This document shows positions 4,977-13,325 of a stretch of DNA of 64,000 bases, one piece after another. The translations under genes were made by a program, and so were the position numbers. Under the pieces are notes generated by a model, which worked only from the letters and a program-made list of their open reading frames with translations, searched no databases and was not told the origin of the DNA. The stretch's first letter is position 1. Every line of letters begins with the position of its first letter. The stretch is from Thermoproteota archaeon (GTDB lineage: Archaea > Thermoproteota > Methanomethylicia > Methanomethylicales > Methanomethylicaceae): the NCBI GenBank assembly GCA_020832905.1, contig JAJHRG010000002.1, forward strand, positions 62,001-126,000. The letters run 5' to 3'.

Positions 4977-5750
4977 GTGGTGAATATGAAGAGAATAAAA
5001 TCTATGAATGCTTTTGAAAAATTAAAAGAAATTGGTTTAAGTGATTATGAGGCTTTAGTTTACTTAAAGCTTGTAATTGATGGACCATCAACTGCAAAAG
5101 AAATAAGTGAAAGTACTGAAGTACCATATACAAAGGTATATGAAGTTTTAGAAGGATTAGAAAGAAAAGGATGGATTGAAATAAGTCAAGGAAGACCTAT
5201 GAGATTTAAAGCAAAATCTCCTTCTGAAGTTGTAGAAATTATAAAAAATGAATATCAAACTCGTTTAAATAAAATTGAAGATTTTTTAATAAATGAATTA
5301 CAGCCAATATATGATGTACATTCAGCAGAAGAATCTGAAATATGGATTTTAAAATCTTCATTAGGAATTATGAATAAAATAAAAAATATGATCAAGACAT
5401 TTAATAAAGAAATTTACATGGTAATAGGAAATTTTGATGTTAATATTTATTCTAGTATTATAAGTGAAATTGAAAAAATTAATATGAATAAGAACATAAA
5501 GATTCTCTTGAATGAAAAAAATTTAAACTTTTTTAGTAATATTCATAAAAGTAATGTAGTAATTAAAAAAGCATTAATTACAATACCTTTTAATGTAATA
5601 TTATCAGATAAAGAAGAAGTATTATTTCATTTAACTATTGGATTAGATAAAACAAGTGAAGAAAGAAAGAATTTAGCAGTACATATACTTGATAAATCCT
5701 TAGCAAAGGTAATACGTGAATATATAGAATTCTTTTGGAAGATAAGCTAA
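4977..5750 (+). CDS. TrmB-like transcriptional regulator
   Basis: 257 residues. The N-terminal winged helix (about 12-85) has the TrmB hallmarks LSDYEALVYLKLV and EVPYTKVYEVLEGLERKGWI. A middle helix is followed by a degenerate effector domain without an obvious sugar-binding signature. The first codons read GTG GTG AAT ATG, so the true start may be the ATG three codons in, or Met10. It diverges from the ABC-2 exporter operon and is the most likely local regulator of it. Its stop abuts the stop of the convergent lipS2-like gene with no base between. Confidence 0.82.
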   Translation: MVNMKRIKSMNAFEKLKEIGLSDYEALVYLKLVIDGPSTAKEISESTEVPYTKVYEVLEGLERKGWIEISQGRPMRFKAKSPSEVVEIIKNEYQTRLNKIEDFLINELQPIYDVHSAEESEIWILKSSLGIMNKIKNMIKTFNKEIYMVIGNFDVNIYSSIISEIEKINMNKNIKILLNEKNLNFFSNIHKSNVVIKKALITIPFNVILSDKEEVLFHLTIGLDKTSEERKNLAVHILDKSLAKVIREYIEFFWKIS

Positions 5751-6539
5751 CTATTTTAATATGCAACATCCATTTATTATTTTTACATTTTTTGCATATT
5801 TTAATGTTTCATAAAGTGGATTAGCAATTCCATCATATTGCAAATCAACTGCTATTTTTTCAATTATTGGTCTATATTTTCCCTTTAATCTCATACATCC
5901 TAATGTAAGATGACCTTTAAAATTTTCTCTTGCATACATCATTACATCCTTAATACCATCTATATCTGAAAAATTATCTATTAATGTAAGTAAAGATAAA
6001 ACATCTACATTTGCTCTTATAGCCATATCTATAGCTTCGTATTCTCCTTTTATTTTTCCATTATCTACTCCAATTAATACATGAGCTGCTACAATAGGAA
6101 TATATTGCTTAGCTAATTTCATACAATACTCATAATCTTCCTTTAACCAATCTCCTTTGATATAATTATCTATAGTTTCTTGACTACCAATAACATCTAT
6201 TAAAACTGCATCAATAATACCACTTAGTTTATCAAATTCCTTTATTAAACCAGAATGTAATTCAATAAAAATTCCTGTTTTAATTTTTCCTTCTTTTATT
6301 ACATCTAAAAATTTGAATATAGGTAATCTTCCTTTTTTATCAAAACCTCCACTTATTAGTATATAATTATAACCTTTTTCTTTTGCTATAATAAATTCAT
6401 TTAATAAATCTTTACTATCTTTTATCCATTTCATATTTTTTAAATATTTTCCTTTACAATGATTACACATAAGTTCACAATATCCACCAGTAATAGAAAT
6501 TGTATATACTGATGGTCTATAAGCAATTATTTTATGCAT
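5751..6539 (-). CDS. lipS2: Radical SAM protein, LipS2-type lipoate synthase component (COG1856-like)
   Basis: About 262 residues from the ATG (a TTG two codons upstream is also possible). A radical SAM [4Fe-4S] motif C-x3-C-x2-C lies at about residues 21-28 (YCELMCNHC), followed by the SAM-binding GG motif in ISGGFDKKGR. The protein ends in a Cys pair (GCC), possibly part of an auxiliary cluster. LipS1 and LipS2 together insert two sulfur atoms into octanoyl-protein to form lipoyl groups in archaea and some bacteria that lack LipA. Assignment rests on fold plus context: it overlaps lplB and lies in one operon with lplA and a second radical SAM gene. Which of the pair is S1 or S2 is tentative. 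Confidence 0.68.
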   Translation of the reverse strand: MHKIIAYRPSVYTISITGGYCELMCNHCKGKYLKNMKWIKDSKDLLNEFIIAKEKGYNYILISGGFDKKGRLPIFKFLDVIKEGKIKTGIFIELHSGLIKEFDKLSGIIDAVLIDVIGSQETIDNYIKGDWLKEDYEYCMKLAKQYIPIVAAHVLIGVDNGKIKGEYEAIDMAIRANVDVLSLLTLIDNFSDIDGIKDVMMYARENFKGHLTLGCMRLKGKYRPIIEKIAVDLQYDGIANPLYETLKYAKNVKIINGCCILK

Positions 6540-6816
6540 TTTCAATTAGCTCCAAAAGATCATTAATTTTAAATCCTAATATTATTATGTTCTTATTTTT
6601 AATGAATTTTTCTAATTCATTTTTCAAATCATTAATAGATTTATTTTTAATAAATTCTTCTAGTTCATCTAAAGCTTCTTCTGGATAAATAAAAAAATCT
6701 CCAGATATTCTAATATTCTTTATGATATCTCCTTCTTTTTCAATACTTACTTTTAATAATTTTTCATATTTTCTTATTACTGTCTTCAAGAAATCACCTT
6801 CTATAATTCCACTCAT
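6532..6816 (-). CDS. lplB: Lipoate-protein ligase accessory subunit LplB (separate C-terminal domain)
   Basis: 94 residues. It matches the small C-terminal domain of lipoate-protein ligases, seen in the phrase ISGDFFIYPEEALDELEEFI at residues 36-55. In some archaea (Thermoplasma is the known case) the ligase is split into LplA and LplB, and both are needed to form lipoyl-AMP. Here the gene overlaps lplA by 23 bases upstream and the lipS2-like gene downstream, indicating translational coupling. The LplA gene next door lacks this domain, consistent with a two-subunit enzyme. Confidence 0.78.
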   Translation of the reverse strand: MSGIIEGDFLKTVIRKYEKLLKVSIEKEGDIIKNIRISGDFFIYPEEALDELEEFIKNKSINDLKNELEKFIKNKNIIILGFKINDLLELIENA

Positions 6817-7543
6817 AAGATTTATATTTATTAATAAGCTCCATAGCTAATTTTCTTTCAAATTCATTAATTTCTCCATAGAATATTTCTACATTAAAAT
6901 ATTTTTTAAATTCCTCAGCTAAAATTTCTGCCATTTCCTCTCTTGAAATATTATATCCTAAATCTTTTAGAGAAACTACTCTCTTAGTAATATCTTTTAA
7001 TTGTTTATCTGCTAATTTCTCATATTTTATTTTTAAAGCAGAAAGAAGAGAATAATCAAAAGATAATAATAAAGTTCCATGTTGTAAAATTGCTCCATAT
7101 TTTCTTGTTTGAGCACTACCAGAAATTTTTCTTCCTTCAACTTCTATATCATTTATAGGTCTAAATCTTGCATTTACTCCAATTCTTTTAAGAGCATTTA
7201 TAATTGGAGTACATATTATCTTATAGCTTTCTTCAATATCAAAAGGAACATATTTACCATCATTTTTTACTATAAAGCTATATGTAAGCTCTCCTTCAGT
7301 ATGAATCACTGCACCTCCTCCAGTTATTCTTCTTACAACTTCTATATTATTTTCCTTACAAAATTCTAAATTAACTTCTTCCTTAATTTCTTGAAAATAA
7401 CCAATAGAAACTGCTCTTGGCCACCAACCATATAATCTTAATGTTGGTGGACTTAAATTCTCTCCAACACATTTAGTTATTGCTTCATCAATTGCCATAT
7501 TATAAAAAGGATCATTTATATGAAATCTTAAGATTCTCAGCAT
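6794..7543 (-). CDS. lplA: Lipoate-protein ligase / octanoyltransferase, catalytic subunit LplA
   Basis: 249 residues of the BPL_LplA_LipB fold. The signature RRITGGGAVIHTEGELTYS is at about 71-89, the N-terminal NDPFYNMAIDEAI is typical, and the presumed lipoyl-AMP-binding Lys is K139 in GRKISGSAQ. It attaches lipoate (or octanoate) to the Lys of carrier domains such as GcvH or 2-oxoacid dehydrogenase E2. The C-terminal accessory domain is absent and is supplied by the overlapping lplB gene. Upstream it overlaps the lipS1-like gene by 32 bases. Together with the two radical SAM genes it could act as octanoyl/lipoyl ligase of a LipS1/LipS2 pathway. Confidence 0.88.
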   Translation of the reverse strand: MLRILRFHINDPFYNMAIDEAITKCVGENLSPPTLRLYGWWPRAVSIGYFQEIKEEVNLEFCKENNIEVVRRITGGGAVIHTEGELTYSFIVKNDGKYVPFDIEESYKIICTPIINALKRIGVNARFRPINDIEVEGRKISGSAQTRKYGAILQHGTLLLSFDYSLLSALKIKYEKLADKQLKDITKRVVSLKDLGYNISREEMAEILAEEFKKYFNVEIFYGEINEFERKLAMELINKYKSYEWNYRR

Positions 7544-8474
7544 ATAGTTCCCTTCTTATTATATCAATTTCTTCTTTTTTTGGTTTTCTTGGATAGTTAT
7601 AAATTGGTCCTAATGGACTTTCATTAAAATATGGTCTATTACAATTAGGACATCCCTTTGTCATAAATGCTTCTCCTTTTTCTATAATATCCTCTATAAT
7701 ACCTTTATTTGCTCTTATTTCTACAATTCTTCCACTATTATCATATATAAACTCATAATCTTCATTCATAAATATTAATTCTCTAGCAATTTGTAATCTT
7801 CTATATGAAGATATACTTGGTTTTTTTAAATTATATAATTCTGTTTTAGGTATAGGAGTAAAAGCAAATAAAGATGGAATAATTCCCATTTTCTTACATT
7901 TTTCTAATATATTAATAACATCACATTCTCTTTCTCCAAGTCCAACTATTATATGAGTTCCAACTTTTTCTTTTCCAAAAATTTTTAATGCTTTTCTTAA
8001 TGAGTCCCAATAATAATCCCAATTTTCTTCTTTTATATAACTAAATAGTTCTTTATTTGCACAATCTATAGGTATAGTAATAATATCAATATCCATTTTT
8101 TTAAGTAATATCATTTCTTCTTCTATTAATGGAGATGTAGATATAGAAATTGGAATATTATTAATATTTGATATAAAATTAATAACTTTTGATATTATAT
8201 TTCTTTCTTTAGAACATTGAATACAAATTCTTTTAAACTTATTTAATGGTTTTTTTAAAATATCTTCAATATTAAATTCAGGCCATGTAATTCTTGAAAT
8301 CATATCTGATGGTTCTTTTGATTGTAAGCAAAATTTACATTTTCCTTCACATTTATTCATTATAATAAAAAAATAACCAGTTGTAGGAGGATCTTTTATA
8401 ATACCTTTAATTAATCCTAATTCTATAGCAGTACCATAAGATACTCTTATTTTATCTCTTCTGCTATATTCCAT
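7512..8474 (-). CDS. lipS1: Radical SAM protein, LipS1-type lipoate synthase component
   Basis: 320 residues, related to biotin synthase. The radical SAM cluster motif is C42-x3-C46-x2-C49 (NKCEGKCKFC). Further Cys pairs at C84/C87 (CIQC) and C275/C278 (GCPNCNRPYFNE) could bind an auxiliary cluster that donates sulfur, as expected for a lipoate synthase. The gene sits between lplA and a TrmB-like gene with overlaps on both sides (32 and 28 bases). The LipS1/LipS2 pathway was shown in Thermococcus kodakarensis; here the identification comes from family resemblance plus the lplA-lplB neighbourhood. No LipA-type gene is seen in the window. Confidence 0.7.
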   Translation of the reverse strand: MEYSRRDKIRVSYGTAIELGLIKGIIKDPPTTGYFFIIMNKCEGKCKFCLQSKEPSDMISRITWPEFNIEDILKKPLNKFKRICIQCSKERNIISKVINFISNINNIPISISTSPLIEEEMILLKKMDIDIITIPIDCANKELFSYIKEENWDYYWDSLRKALKIFGKEKVGTHIIVGLGERECDVINILEKCKKMGIIPSLFAFTPIPKTELYNLKKPSISSYRRLQIARELIFMNEDYEFIYDNSGRIVEIRANKGIIEDIIEKGEAFMTKGCPNCNRPYFNESPLGPIYNYPRKPKKEEIDIIRRELYAENLKISYK

Positions 8475-9229
8475 AGGTATTGAAATGTATCTAGAAGAAC
8501 TTCTATCATTCCTTGATTTTTTGTATATCCTGGTCTGTAATATATTCTTTCACCTCTTTCTTTCTTTGCCCATATTAAAAAAACTGCTTCTTTTTTATCT
8601 ACAATAGTAAATCTTATATTTCTCCATAGTCCTTTTGATATTCTCACTTTAATTTTATTCATTTTTAATTCTTTTATTCTATCTTCAATTTCTTTATTAA
8701 ATGTTAAAAATAATACTTTAACTTCTACATTTCTGTCTACAGCAGATATTAGTTCTTCTCTAATTCTTGGATAATAACTAAATCTTTCTGTTAAAATAGA
8801 AATTTCATTTTTTGCTCTTGAAATTAACTTTATTGTTTCTACTTCCATTTCCTTTAAATTCTCAATAGGTTGCCATAATTCTTCTAATCTTATACCATAT
8901 TTACTTTCAACATATATTTGTTCTAGAGTATTTTGAAGTTCGCTTATTATTCTTTTTAATTCTACTAATTTTGATTCAAATTCTAATTCTTTTATTTTTA
9001 AAAATTTACTTAGAAAAATTTTTGGAGAAACAAGTACTATGGTATCTCCTATAATTTCAATAGAACCAAATTGTAATAGTCTAGAAATAGATTCTTCTAA
9101 ATCTTTAGAATTAATATTAAGTTCTTCTAATAAATTCTTCTTGTTAACTTCTCCTTTTTTTAGTATGTATTCATAAATTTTTATATCTAAATCTGAAAAA
9201 CCAATTTGTTTTAATTTTTCTATTTCCAT
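8447..9229 (-). CDS. TrmB-like transcriptional regulator inside the lipoate operon
   Basis: 260 residues. The N-terminal winged helix (about 5-75) starts with IGFSDLDIKIYEYILKKGEV, then a long helix (about 85-125) and a C-terminal PLD-like sensing domain (about 130-245) with ISILTERFSYYPRIREELI. The recognition helix is less conserved than in the other two TrmB proteins of the window. It overlaps the lipS1-like gene by 28 bases and lies 9 bases from a RAM-domain gene, so it is transcribed with them and may sense lipoate, methionine or an amino acid. The ligand is not visible from sequence. Confidence 0.72.
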   Translation of the reverse strand: MEIEKLKQIGFSDLDIKIYEYILKKGEVNKKNLLEELNINSKDLEESISRLLQFGSIEIIGDTIVLVSPKIFLSKFLKIKELEFESKLVELKRIISELQNTLEQIYVESKYGIRLEELWQPIENLKEMEVETIKLISRAKNEISILTERFSYYPRIREELISAVDRNVEVKVLFLTFNKEIEDRIKELKMNKIKVRISKGLWRNIRFTIVDKKEAVFLIWAKKERGERIYYRPGYTKNQGMIEVLLDTFQYLWNIAEEIK

Positions 9230-9238
9230 TACATCACC

Positions 9239-9469
9239 TTATATTTCTATAAGCTCTTCTATTCTTATTATACCTTTAAGTGATGATATTTTATTTAGTA
9301 ATGATTTTACTTCAGATAAATTATTTACATTAAAGAAAGCAACAATATCAAATCTTCCAAAAGTAGGAAATACATCTAATACTTCTGGCATTTTTTCAAT
9401 TTCATTAACTATATCAAGAACTGAAGTTTTATCAGCATTTATTAATACAACTAAATGCATTTTTCTCAC
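9239..9469 (-). CDS. Stand-alone Lrp/AsnC ligand-binding (RAM) domain protein
   Basis: 76 residues covering only the beta-alpha-beta-beta-alpha-beta ligand-binding domain of Lrp/AsnC regulators; there is no DNA-binding helix-turn-helix. The pattern VVLINADKTSVLDIVNEIEKMPEVLDVFPTFGRFDIVAFF is shown here only in part: VLDVFPTFGRFDIV is the key phrase. Start choice is supported by AGGTGA 5 bases upstream. It abuts a second RAM gene (9470-9709). RAM domains bind amino acids and form oligomers, and can modulate partner regulators or enzymes. Its place next to a TrmB-like gene and methionine synthase genes suggests amino acid sensing. Confidence 0.78.
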   Translation of the reverse strand: MRKMHLVVLINADKTSVLDIVNEIEKMPEVLDVFPTFGRFDIVAFFNVNNLSEVKSLLNKISSLKGIIRIEELIEI

Positions 9470-9709
9470 CTATAATATTGTTTCAATTAAAGTCTCAGTA
9501 GAAATAACACCAGGAATTTTTGCTATTTCATAAACAGCAATTCCTAATTTTTCTAATCCCTGTGTTTCATATTCTACTACTATATCGCAACTTCCTAAAA
9601 CTTCAAATGCTCTTTTTACACCTTTCATGTTTTTTATTATATTTATTACTTCTGAAGATTTTCCAGGATGGCAATATACTAAAATACATGCTAATACCAC
9701 TTTCATCAC
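9470..9709 (-). CDS. Stand-alone Lrp/AsnC ligand-binding (RAM) domain protein, second copy
   Basis: 79 residues, again only a RAM domain. Key phrases are ILVYCHPGKSSEVINII and AFEVLGSCDIVVEYE, the usual position of the amino acid pocket. It directly abuts the first RAM gene and overlaps the MtrH-like gene by 4 bases, so both RAM proteins are co-expressed with C1 transfer enzymes. The two copies are only loosely similar, so a heteromer is as likely as a redundant pair. No HTH partner of the same family is in the operon; the TrmB-like protein encoded downstream is the only DNA-binding candidate. Confidence 0.78.
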   Translation of the reverse strand: MMKVVLACILVYCHPGKSSEVINIIKNMKGVKRAFEVLGSCDIVVEYETQGLEKLGIAVYEIAKIPGVISTETLIETIL

Positions 9710-10554
9710 CTTAAACTCATTAATAATTTATAAAATGGATGATCCTTTTCTACTTTTCCTCCCTTAAGTTTTTCTCCATAGGCTTTTATTCCTTCAATAA
9801 TTGCTAATGGCTCAAATACATAGCTAGCTGCTCTTAATGGTCCATAAATTATAAAATCTGCATTAGCTAATTGCAACATAGTAGATAATGCAATATTAAT
9901 ACTTCTTGCTATAGTTTTATTTACTTTTTTACTAGTAAGTAATTGATATGCAATATTAGAAGGTGCACATCCTGCAGGAAGATTAAGTTCTTTTTTTATT
10001 AATTTTATAGATTCAAATGCTAACCATGTACTTGTAATATCTAGAATTCCAACATCTACTGCTATTTCTTTTATATTTGCTTTTTTACATTTTTCTAGTA
10101 AACAATCTCTTATAAGAGAAATTTTTTCTTCAGGATATATTGCTGATGGATCAATTGCTTGAATAATTGCATATTCTATACCATATTCCTTTATTTTTTC
10201 AAGTTCATAATCCGTAGTATTAGGAGTAATTGCATTTACTCCACATTTAATACCTAATTCTTTTGCTTTTTTATATCCTGCAATTCTTGTTTCTTCATTT
10301 AATCCTCCTATAAATATTGGATCTTTAGTTAGATCTTGCAAAATTTCAATATAATTTTCCATAGCAATAGGAGTTTCAGCAATTACATCTAAAGCATGAT
10401 TAATACCTGTTTTTTCTTTTAGTATTTTTACTTTTTTTAATTCTCTTTTCAGAGCATTTTCATTTATTATTCCTTTTTTATGATCTATAACTTTTTTATC
10501 TCCTTTATAAAATAAGCTACCTATAAGTAAGAATTTAGAAAATATATTACTCAT
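9706..10554 (-). CDS. MtrH-family tetrahydromethanopterin (or folate)-corrinoid methyltransferase
   Basis: 282 residues resembling subunit H of tetrahydromethanopterin S-methyltransferase: IDVIAETP-like and DPIFIGG beta strands, ITPNTTDYELEKIKEYG, and the glycine-rich GCAPSNIAY near residue 197. MtrH moves a methyl group between N5 of tetrahydromethanopterin and a cobalt corrinoid. No other Mtr subunits are nearby; instead the gene overlaps a core methionine synthase gene (8 bases) that in turn overlaps a corrinoid protein gene. The likely role is to load that corrinoid protein with methyl from methyl-tetrahydromethanopterin. The reverse use, feeding methyl groups into the C1 pool, cannot be excluded. 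Confidence 0.78.
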   Translation of the reverse strand: MSNIFSKFLLIGSLFYKGDKKVIDHKKGIINENALKRELKKVKILKEKTGINHALDVIAETPIAMENYIEILQDLTKDPIFIGGLNEETRIAGYKKAKELGIKCGVNAITPNTTDYELEKIKEYGIEYAIIQAIDPSAIYPEEKISLIRDCLLEKCKKANIKEIAVDVGILDITSTWLAFESIKLIKKELNLPAGCAPSNIAYQLLTSKKVNKTIARSINIALSTMLQLANADFIIYGPLRAASYVFEPLAIIEGIKAYGEKLKGGKVEKDHPFYKLLMSLR

Positions 10555-11440
10555 GACTTAATACCTCTTTTAAAGCAATTACCATATTTTTAAGTTTTGA
10601 AAAAGCTATATCACGAGTAAATGGTCTTAAGCCACAATCTGGATGGATAAAAGCTATATTTTCTTGACCATAAGTTTCAAAACCTTTTTTTATTATTTTC
10701 TTTATAGATTCTACACTATCAATCCTACTTTCCATTGTGCTTACACATCCTAATCCTATTTTCTTAGAGTAATCTTCTATAATTTTTCTTTCAACAATAT
10801 CAAAATTACTTATATTATCTTTAAAGGAAAAAGATAATACATCTATATTTTCAATTTTTACAATTTCTTTAAATGATTTTCTTAAGTTTCCACATACATG
10901 TATAGATTTTATTCCTTTTATATCAGAAAATATTCTTTCAATAAACTTTTTTCCTATATCAATAGGTGCACCTATAGAAAAACTTGGTTCATCTACTTGA
11001 AAATATTTTACTCCTACTTTTTTGTATATAATTTCAATTTCTACTGCTAATGCTTCTGAAATATCTTCATATAATCTTAAATCTCTAAATCCTGAATAAG
11101 GAGCATCTGGAGAAAGTTCAGAAAAGAATATCATAGTTATAGGTCCAGTAATAATAGCTTTTAATTCTGCTTTTCCATAAGATAATTTTTTAGCAAATAA
11201 TAAATCTTCTACTAATGGAGTTTCTTCAGGTGGTTTTATTTTTCCTATAATTTCAGTTTTTTCATTTTCTACTTTAAATCCAGGTATATGATCAGAAAAA
11301 TATGAAATCATATCTTTTCTTGTTTGACCATCACTTATTATTTCAATTCCTGCATTTATTTGATCTTCTACAGCAATTTTAATTGCTTCTATATCCTTAC
11401 CAACTACAGGATAACTACCAATAACTGTTGTTTTTATCAT
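10547..11440 (-). CDS. Core methionine synthase (MetE C-terminal-domain-only type)
   Basis: 297 residues equal to the catalytic C-terminal barrel of MetE; the N-terminal barrel is absent. Matching motifs are VIGSYP at the start, QVDEPSF at 148-154, the zinc ligands H181-x-C183 (IHVCGN) and C269 in HPDCGLRPFTRD. The fourth zinc ligand of classical MetE, a Glu in the VISIE strand, appears as Ser in DVLSFSFKD. Short MetE proteins of archaea and some bacteria take the methyl group from a methyl-corrinoid protein rather than from folate, which fits the corrinoid protein gene overlapping it by 4 bases. It would make methionine from homocysteine. Confidence 0.82.
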   Translation of the reverse strand: MIKTTVIGSYPVVGKDIEAIKIAVEDQINAGIEIISDGQTRKDMISYFSDHIPGFKVENEKTEIIGKIKPPEETPLVEDLLFAKKLSYGKAELKAIITGPITMIFFSELSPDAPYSGFRDLRLYEDISEALAVEIEIIYKKVGVKYFQVDEPSFSIGAPIDIGKKFIERIFSDIKGIKSIHVCGNLRKSFKEIVKIENIDVLSFSFKDNISNFDIVERKIIEDYSKKIGLGCVSTMESRIDSVESIKKIIKKGFETYGQENIAFIHPDCGLRPFTRDIAFSKLKNMVIALKEVLSHE

Positions 11441-12060
11441 TTTATCACCCAGTTATTAGCTATTCTTACAGCATCATTAGCATCTTTACCATAAGCATCT
11501 GCTCCTATTTTTTTAGCAATTTCTTCATTTACAGCAACTCCTCCAATCATTATTTTTAGCTTATTAGATATTTTACGTGCTATTGATATTATTTTTTCTG
11601 CTTTTTCAATATCTGAAGTTAATAAAATAGAAAGAGCTAGTATGTCTACTTTATTTTCTCTTAGTATTTTTTCTACTAACTCTGGACTAATATTAATACC
11701 AATATCTATTACTTTAAAATTGTTAGCAATAAGCATAGCAGAAACAATAGATTTTCCTATATCATGAGGACCTAGTGATCCAATTGCTACTACTGCCTTA
11801 TAGTTTCTTTCTTCACTTTTACTAATTAATGGTAAAATTAAGTTAAGAGAAGTTTTTGCAGCATTTGCTGCTCTTATAACTTCAGGAAGGAATAATTCTC
11901 CTTTATCAAATAATTCTCCAACATATCTTAATCCCTCAGTTATAGCATTAATAATTTCATTAATACTTATCCCCATATTAAGAGATTTTTCAGTTAATAG
12001 TTTAGATTTTTTTGAATCTTGTTCAATTATTGATTTTTTAAGTTCTTCTAAAATATCCAT
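11437..12060 (-). CDS. Corrinoid (cobalamin-binding) methyl-carrier protein
   Basis: 207 residues from the ATG at 12060; this start is chosen because GTGAT lies just upstream, although the frame stays open to 12108. The helical cap domain (about 1-80) has LFDKGELFLPEVIRAANAAK, typical of MtbC/MtaC/MetH-type carriers. The B12 domain follows, with the cobalt-ligating His at about H99 in GPHDIGKS. In the family motif D-x-H-x-x-G the Asp is replaced by Gly here. It is the first gene of the minus-strand operon ending at 5751, and is proposed to carry methyl from the MtrH-like protein to the core methionine synthase. Confidence 0.85.
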   Translation of the reverse strand: MDILEELKKSIIEQDSKKSKLLTEKSLNMGISINEIINAITEGLRYVGELFDKGELFLPEVIRAANAAKTSLNLILPLISKSEERNYKAVVAIGSLGPHDIGKSIVSAMLIANNFKVIDIGINISPELVEKILRENKVDILALSILLTSDIEKAEKIISIARKISNKLKIMIGGVAVNEEIAKKIGADAYGKDANDAVRIANNWVIK

Positions 12061-12096
12061 GATTATCACACATATACGAAAACTTTTAGACTTCCT

Positions 12097-12130
12097 AATA
12101 TATATCAATTTTTTCGTTAAGTGAAAGATT
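12097..12130. promoter_or_regulatory. Divergent intergenic region between the corrinoid operon and the ACT gene
   Basis: The 70 bases between the ATG at 12060 and the ATG at 12131 contain a TATA-like run (TAATATATATC, about 12097-12107). It can serve either strand. It is placed about 37-47 bases upstream of the minus-strand ATG and 24-34 bases upstream of the plus-strand ATG, which suits a nearly leaderless plus-strand transcript. No separate operator repeat is obvious. Confidence 0.4.
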
Positions 12131-12391
12131 ATGCAAAAAGAAAAAGATAGATATGTAGTAATTACTACAATTGGTCCAAATAGACCAGGATTAATGTCTG
12201 AAATTTCTTCTGTTATATCAGAATTTGGATGTAATATTGAAGATTTAGATCAAGTAGTAATGAAGAGAAATATATTTGTACTATCTATGCTTGTAAACAT
12301 ACCTATTAATGTTAATATAGATAAATTAAGAGAAAAGATGAGTAAAATATGTAATGAAATTGGACTTGAGGTGTTTTTCTATTATGCTTGA
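12131..12391 (+). CDS. ACT-domain protein
   Basis: 86 residues making a single ACT domain of the UPF0237/GcvR type: ITTIGPNRPGLMSEISSVISEFGCNIEDLDQ is its signature region, of which GPNRPGLMSEIS is the ligand-loop part. ACT domains bind amino acids, commonly serine or glycine. The gene overlaps the next one by 8 bases, and that gene encodes phosphoserine phosphatase carrying its own ACT domain, so this protein may help regulate serine synthesis. It diverges from the methionine/lipoate operon. There is no catalytic domain. Confidence 0.82.
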   Translation: MQKEKDRYVVITTIGPNRPGLMSEISSVISEFGCNIEDLDQVVMKRNIFVLSMLVNIPINVNIDKLREKMSKICNEIGLEVFFYYA

Positions 12392-13325
12392 GGATAATAA
12401 AATGGTAATAACAGTTGTAGGAAAAGATAGACCAGGCATAGTAGCTAATGTAAGTGGTGTACTTGCTAGATTTCATGTTAATATACTTAAAACAAGAGCT
12501 ACTACAATATTTTCAGATTTATTTGTGATAATATTAGCAGTAGATACAAGTGTATCATTAGTAAGAAAAGATGTATTAATAAATATATTGAAGAAAAGTT
12601 GTGAAGATGTTGGTCTTGCTATTGCTATAGAGTCATTTCAAAGCTATAAATATGATAAAAAATTAGTAGTATTTGATCTTGATGGAACACTTATTGAACA
12701 AGAAGTAATTGATGAGCTTGCAAAAGCAGCAGGTGTTGGTGAAGAAGTTAAAAGAATAACAAAAATGGCAATGGAAGGAAAGATAAATTATTTAGAAGCA
12801 TTAAAAGCAAGAGTAAAATTACTAAAAGGTCTACATGTAAATGTACTAGAAAAAATAAAATCATCTACTATTATAAATCCTAGTGTAAAAGAATTAGTAT
12901 CAAAATTAAAAGAATTAGGATTTAAAATAGGAATTGTAACTGGAAGTTTTGATTTTATTTCTAATTATGTTGGAAAAATAATAGGAGCAGATTATGTATT
13001 TTGTAATAAGCTTATTATTAAAGATGGATATTTAACAGGAGAAGTTGAAGGTGAAATAATAAGTCCAGAAGCTAAATTAAATGCAATAAAGAAAATAGCT
13101 AAAGAATTAGGTATAGGATTAGAATCATGTGTTGCTATTGGAGATGGTGCAAATGATCTCTTTATGATAGAAAATGTAGGATTAGGAATTGGCTATAAGC
13201 CAAAGCTTATTGTAAAGGAAAGATCTCATGGATTAATAAATACTGATGATATTAGAGTACTATTAGCATTAATGGGATGTATAGAACTAAAAAAAGATAT
13301 AGTTAAACGTTTAGAAAGAATATGA
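12384..13325 (+). CDS. serB: Phosphoserine phosphatase with N-terminal ACT domain
   Basis: About 313 residues from the ATG at 12384, chosen because GAGGTG lies 11 bases upstream; an ATG at 12402 is also possible. Residues about 7-80 form an ACT domain (VVGKDRPGIVANVSG), then a HAD hydrolase domain: motif I VVFDLDGTLIEQE with the nucleophile Asp, motif II TGSFDFIS, and motif III GDGANDLFMI. It removes phosphate from L-phosphoserine in the last step of serine synthesis. The start codon overlaps the upstream ACT gene, so the two are translationally coupled. The stop overlaps the ATG of the thioredoxin gene. Confidence 0.9.
   Translation: MLEDNKMVITVVGKDRPGIVANVSGVLARFHVNILKTRATTIFSDLFVIILAVDTSVSLVRKDVLINILKKSCEDVGLAIAIESFQSYKYDKKLVVFDLDGTLIEQEVIDELAKAAGVGEEVKRITKMAMEGKINYLEALKARVKLLKGLHVNVLEKIKSSTIINPSVKELVSKLKELGFKIGIVTGSFDFISNYVGKIIGADYVFCNKLIIKDGYLTGEVEGEIISPEAKLNAIKKIAKELGIGLESCVAIGDGANDLFMIENVGLGIGYKPKLIVKERSHGLINTDDIRVLLALMGCIELKKDIVKRLERI

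Follow-up and report, generated by a model that had tools for sequence, protein, structure and literature searches.

Do the ten tightly packed genes at positions 12060 to 5751 (minus strand) of a 64,000-nucleotide stretch from a Thermoproteota archaeon (contig JAJHRG010000002.1; the whole stretch is called the window below) form one system that couples lipoate synthesis to methionine synthesis, or are they two systems that adjoin? The open reading frames (ORFs) overlap by up to 32 bases or leave gaps of at most 9 bases, and each family assignment is backed by Pfam/NCBIfam profile searches (Table 1). The ten genes and their order, as listed in an initial annotation of the window, are borne out by the ORF positions and these matches. 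They comprise module A (corrinoid protein-MetE-MtrH-RAM-RAM) and module B (TrmB-LipS2-LplA-LplB-LipS1), which the initial annotation took for a single combined system. The genome comparison makes it likely that A and B are two functionally independent, individually conserved operons joined in this lineage, and that A encodes a corrinoid-dependent methionine synthase of three components.

The window comes from a 1.16-Mb assembly, 92% complete, of a Methanomethyliaceae-type methanogen. The nearest named genome with this MetE is the Methanomethylicota (Verstraetearchaeota) metagenome-assembled genome (MAG) WYZ-LMO11, with 91% protein identity, and the next MetE matches are from Methanomethyliaceae and Methanosuratincola MAGs. 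The family sample consists of 22 genomes (G000-G021, where G000 is the host's own genome), in which the identities, order, conservation and presence or absence of the genes were observed directly.

Gene order inside A, and inside B, is kept family-wide wherever the contigs allow, and since each module recurs in the same order in every examinable family genome, the order is not due to chance. The joint order of A and B, by contrast, fails outside two genera, so the claim of one combined system is not sustained. In the 15 family genomes informative for the A-B spacing, the modules adjoin in four (G000 and G001 of genus g1, with 9-10 bp between them, and G007 and G011 of genus g7, with 45-46 bp), whereas in ten they are ~1.9-7.7 kb apart, with unrelated genes in between (~1.9 kb in G004, G006, G010 and G014; ~4 kb in G015; ~5-8 kb in G002, G005, G018, G020 and G021). 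In G003 there is no linkage: A and B occupy separate contigs, and A is followed by 8 kb of other genes. The spacer contains an AP-endonuclease-family (endonuclease IV-like) gene and an unannotated gene, both on the opposite strand, to which genus g2 adds a HerA-family ATPase. In an unrooted tree built from six concatenated proteins, g1 lies next to g7, so a single joining event suffices. The gene block on the opposite flank (ACT protein, SerB, thioredoxin, TatD-like protein, aminotransferase) is about equally conserved, and the A-B linkage therefore needs no functional cause.

The MetE of module A (297 aa) is the catalytic domain alone (PF01717), without the N-terminal folate half. Its AlphaFold model (mean confidence, pLDDT, 92) has only MetE structures among its top PDB folds, with template modelling (TM) scores of 0.81-0.85, and the coenzyme M methyltransferase MtaA of M. 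mazei (4ay7) matches less closely (TM 0.68). The homocysteine site (S9, Q39, D150) and the zinc ligands H181, C183 and C269 are invariant in the family. Gln39, at the position of E. coli Glu484, is the glutamine that marks MesA and MesC. The protein scores just under the PRK00957 cut-off, and PF01717 matches are found in M. jannaschii and not in M. acetivorans; the latter pattern hints at a place on the MesA side. The corrinoid protein, so named by its domains, contains both B12-binding domains (PF02607, PF02310) and is expected to bind its cofactor in the base-off/His-on manner. The MtrH-like protein is well over the PF02007 cut-off (117 bits vs 22.8), and under the equivalog cut-offs of mtrH (TIGR01114) and MtgA.

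The genome contents point in the same direction. A profile search of the host genome found a single PF01717 gene and a single MtrH gene, and the search for a second MetE or a MetH elsewhere in it gave none. The homocysteine domain of MetH (the S-methyl_trans part of TIGR02082) has no match in 16 family genomes, where homology is limited to the B12 domain; several other corrinoid proteins are present in the family. The core MetE is thus the only candidate methionine synthase found. CdhD was not found in 21 of the 22 family genomes (a partial match is present in G020), whereas most genomes of the class outside the family have it. The PF01717 relatives in other class members are weak only. RACo occurs in all 22, and methylenetetrahydrofolate reductase (MTHFR), adjoined by a MetV-type gene, in 17 of 19 family genomes against none of 12 others. 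The family appears to have exchanged the context of the corrinoid iron-sulfur protein (CoFeSP) for MetVF and module A. The proposed methyl route through MtrH and the corrinoid protein to methionine is supported by the gene content together with the co-occurrence of MTHFR and RACo, the pterin being either tetrahydromethanopterin (H4MPT) or tetrahydrofolate. A scan of genome contigs, with patterns that favour close relatives, located module A exclusively in Methanomethylicota-type MAGs, and the same scan returned two bacterial MetE relatives in neighbourhoods without module A.

Related genes occur in other arrangements outside the family. In G041 (another family, no clear CdhD), a MetE-like gene of another kind at the locus L124 (G041:C1:270000-278264) is grouped with genes for a corrinoid protein and RACo and, on the other strand, for an MtrH-like protein; the same functions seem to have come together there independently. 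In G022 (same order, another family), MtrH lies in the same thioredoxin/TatD neighbourhood, the MetE-like gene is found elsewhere, near an inositol-phosphate-synthase-like gene, and no CdhD, MTHFR or LipS2 was detected.

From these observations we infer the direction of methyl flow, the transfers between the module A proteins and their regulation. MetV-MetF, encoded elsewhere, would make the methyl-pterin, the MtrH-like protein would move the methyl group to the dedicated corrinoid protein, and the core MetE would pass it on to homocysteine, giving methionine; RACo, also encoded elsewhere, would rescue the oxidised corrinoid. Module A would in this way take over the function of MetH, using a homocysteine module of the MetE type and no CoFeSP, and the three co-encoded proteins are probably a split B12-type methionine synthase independent of the acetyl-CoA pathway. 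In a more tentative extension, which we consider possible, MetV-MetF would supply methyl groups to a novel methionine synthase made of three proteins (the MtrH-like protein, the dedicated GxHxxG corrinoid protein and a core MetE whose zinc site is altered). This enzyme would have replaced a CoFeSP-fed route upon loss of the acetyl-CoA pathway, and RAM proteins devoid of a helix-turn-helix (HTH) domain would sense methionine or S-adenosylmethionine (SAM).

The core methionine synthases MesA, MesB and MesC (PMC7857596) and core-MetE (PMC7005905) resemble this MetE in consisting of the catalytic domain alone, in the homocysteine-site residues, which include the glutamine of MesA and MesC, and in the presumed corrinoid-protein donor. 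Their predicted methyl donors are MtrA for MesA and CoFeSP for MesB and MesC (PMC7857596), and methyl-H4MPT with MtrH has been discussed as a possible methyl source for archaeal core-MetE (PMC7005905). The present operon differs in that it also encodes a corrinoid protein and an MtrH-like methyltransferase, in a family without CoFeSP, and in the absence of the Glu665 ligand. The division of labour is that of MetH (methyl-pterin, B12 and homocysteine domains), but module A is not MetH: there is no match to the homocysteine domain, three separate proteins take the place of one chain, and RACo would stand in for the SAM-dependent reactivation domain. An MtrH-family protein paired with an MtgC-type corrinoid protein is also found in the MtgA/MtgC and MtrH-MttB-MttC glycine betaine systems, whereas in module A a MetE occupies the place of the MttB/MtgB-type substrate methyltransferase. 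There is a precedent for splitting a corrinoid methionine synthase, because the marine-bacterial MtgC/MtgD is a methionine synthase built of corrinoid parts (PMC12478193). No paper describing the arrangement of module A was found in a literature search that covered few subscription papers. Gene content and co-occurrence give good support to a corrinoid methionine-synthase operon. Here the likely methyl donor of a core methionine synthase and its loading enzyme share one conserved operon, so that the whole methyl chain can be expressed and tested. The locus also suggests how methionine synthesis is rewired upon loss of CO dehydrogenase/acetyl-CoA synthase.

A different function has been proposed for genes of this kind. 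In Verstraetearchaeota/Methanomethylicia MAGs, mtrH beside corrinoid and methyltransferase genes was assigned to methanogenesis from unnamed compounds (PMC6783470, PMC10033731); the locus meant is likely this one, judged from the wording and not gene by gene. The lone MtrH, the corrinoid protein and the adjacent methyltransferase would then serve H2-dependent methanogenesis from methylated compounds not yet named, and the genomes are indeed those of methanogens (Mmp3 and marker 7 are encoded near RACo in the host genome) with further corrinoid proteins at hand. The neighbouring methyltransferase, however, is a MetE and not of the MttB, MtaB or MtaA type, module A contains no substrate methyltransferase, the co-occurrence with MetF fits biosynthesis, and if module A is set aside the family is left without a detected methionine synthase. 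We therefore find this role rather improbable, and the lone mtrH of Methanomethylicia would have a different one. Still less credible is that the MetE-like protein methylates another thiol or has lost the zinc-dependent activity, although Ser or Ala replaces the Glu665 equivalent, the chain is shorter than MesA and MtaA is a distant fold match, since Ser, Gln and Asp of the homocysteine site are invariant, as are three zinc ligands, since the nearby and likewise invariant Asp208 and Asp214 are possible substitutes for Glu665, and since no other methionine synthase was found. That A and B form one integrated, co-regulated system of lipoate, glycine cleavage, one-carbon (C1) and methionine/SAM metabolism is unlikely as well. 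The gene run is tight in g1 and nearly continuous in g7, the modules lie on the same strand at most 8 kb apart in 14 of the 15 informative genomes, and the genome encodes both glycine cleavage and MetV-MetF. Against this stand the opposite-strand unrelated genes between the modules in most genera, the unlinked modules of G003, the 45-bp AT-rich spacer retained ahead of TrmB in g7 and the distant gcv genes, while common descent explains the proximity.

Several points weigh against two independent operons with A as a methionine synthase. In g1, the 9-10 bp spacing fits a promoter only within RAM2, which makes read-through from A into B likely; the modules may well share a transcript there, and the ten genes look like one transcript, cotranscription in this genus being deduced from the spacing. 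The fourth zinc ligand of MetE (E. coli Glu665) is Ser or Ala in the family, and in the corrinoid protein GPHDIG replaces DxHxxG, with the axial His kept and Asp changed to Gly in 15 of 15 sequences; both alterations lower the confidence in the textbook mechanism. The assemblies are 60-98% complete, hence gene absences are provisional. The Mtr complex (MtrA-G) is reported absent in this group (PMC6783470), and MtrA was not searched for in the present analysis.

Module B is an already known set, and its union with module A is a local joining of two operons. The four genes lipS2-lplA-lplB-lipS1 are those of the published LipS1/LipS2 and LplA/LplB systems (PMC9585515, PMC10332631), in the order typical for Archaea (PMC10332631) and with the cluster residues kept; unlike in the published clusters, a TrmB-like gene heads module B throughout the family. 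The radical SAM pair had been assigned to the lipoate families, which holds, with the two names interchanged: the gene at 7512-8474 is LipS2 and that at 5751-6545 is LipS1. Membership of non-lipoate radical SAM families was considered and not found, LipS2 being over its cut-off and LipS1 retaining its residues. For LipS1, NF053742 is the best and only family, with a score below the cut-off of 230 bits, as in relatives (188 and 218). Its Cx3Cx2C motif and the counterparts of T. kodakarensis C230, C276, C277 and H159 are invariant in 15 family sequences, as are the LipS2 counterparts of C85, C276 and C279. LipA was not found in the genome, in agreement with its replacement by LipS1/LipS2; weak LipA matches in G007 and G011 were rejected, as they are the LipS2 genes of those genomes. 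The split ligase is confirmed by separate catalytic and small subunits, LplA and LplB. LplA spans two reading frames in G020 (L108:3480-4224), because of a frameshift error or because the gene is broken.

Module B would octanoylate or lipoylate GcvH, with ligation by LplA/LplB and subsequent sulfur insertion by LipS2 and LipS1. GcvH (G000:C6:161913), GcvT, GcvP1 and GcvP2 are all encoded in the host genome, at separate places. In respect to the suggestion that lipoyl-GcvH feeds C1 units through glycine cleavage, the complete gcv set and MetV-MetF speak for it, while the genes are scattered and none is near the locus; the loop is possible in metabolism, without genomic co-location. The further idea that the methionine module supplies SAM to the two radical SAM enzymes is no more specific for them than for any SAM enzyme. 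In the g6 genomes G006, G010 and G017, GcvP was not detected, although all three have GcvH and retain the lipoate genes (GcvT is present in G006 and G010); this may reflect incomplete assembly or another use of lipoyl-GcvH.

The corrinoid-protein ORF opens at 12108 (TTG), and its likely start is the ATG at 12060, as initially annotated, preceded by a TATA-like box at ~12097-12108. Ahead of the corrinoid gene, the element GAAAATCTAwTTAAsTTTTYGT is strongly conserved in g2-g6 (L097-L113), and TTTTCGTAT is kept in g1 too (window 12074-12120, in the region separating module A from the divergent ACT gene); this would be a promoter with a possible operator. The promoter-region element AAGTTTTCGTAT is absent near metV-metF and in the other stretches of the host genome that were examined, so no regulon is shown. 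Both RAM proteins probably act as regulators that bind effectors, and the TrmB-like gene always precedes LipS2 in the family.

Table 1. Genes of modules A and B and the likely promoter, in order of transcription (window positions).
Feature	Position	Strand	Evidence
Likely promoter (BRE/TATA-like) of module A, predicted	12097..12120	-	cgaaaaaattgatatata ~37-60 bases upstream of ATG
Corrinoid protein (MtgC/MtbC-like), putative dedicated methyl carrier	11437..12060	-	PF02310 1.2e-19, PF02607 2e-13; TIGR02370 126 bits, under cut-off
Core MetE, predicted corrinoid protein:homocysteine methyltransferase	10547..11440	-	PF01717 3.1e-32; PRK00957 255.7 bits, cut-off 258
MtrH-like, predicted methyl-pterin:corrinoid protein methyltransferase	9706..10554	-	PF02007 1.1e-33; PRK00979 204, MtgA 155, TIGR01114 99 bits, all under cut-offs
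RAM-domain protein 1, without DNA-binding domain	9470..9709	-	PF01037 3e-8; in module A family-wide
RAM-domain protein 2, without DNA-binding domain	9239..9469	-	PF01037 6.8e-9; in module A family-wide
TrmB-like protein, module B gene 1	8447..9229	-	PF11495 9e-9, PF01978 1.2e-7; C-terminal half weakly PLD-like
LipS2	7512..8474	-	NF053743 304.7 bits, cut-off 270; Cx3Cx2C, C84, C275, C278
LplA, lipoate-protein ligase large subunit	6794..7543	-	PF21948 1.7e-57; NF053750 220 bits
LplB, lipoate-protein ligase small subunit	6532..6816	-	NF053749 59 bits, cut-off 65
LipS1	5751..6545	-	NF053742 193 bits, cut-off 230; C23/C27/C30, H155, C217, C260, C261

The ORF clusters c8, c19 and c31 of the gene maps were rejected as genes, as they are antisense ORFs over the RAM, LplB and corrinoid genes. 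Convergent with LipS1, a second TrmB-like regulator (window 4977-5750, plus strand), homologous to the TrmB of module B, adjoins an ABC exporter pair and recurs in g1, g6 and g7. Divergent from A (window 12131-13325, plus strand) are the ACT-domain protein and SerB (phosphoserine phosphatase with an ACT domain; TIGR00338 over cut-off), whose position next to A is conserved family-wide. Serine from the SerB side could feed a C1 pool common with module A.

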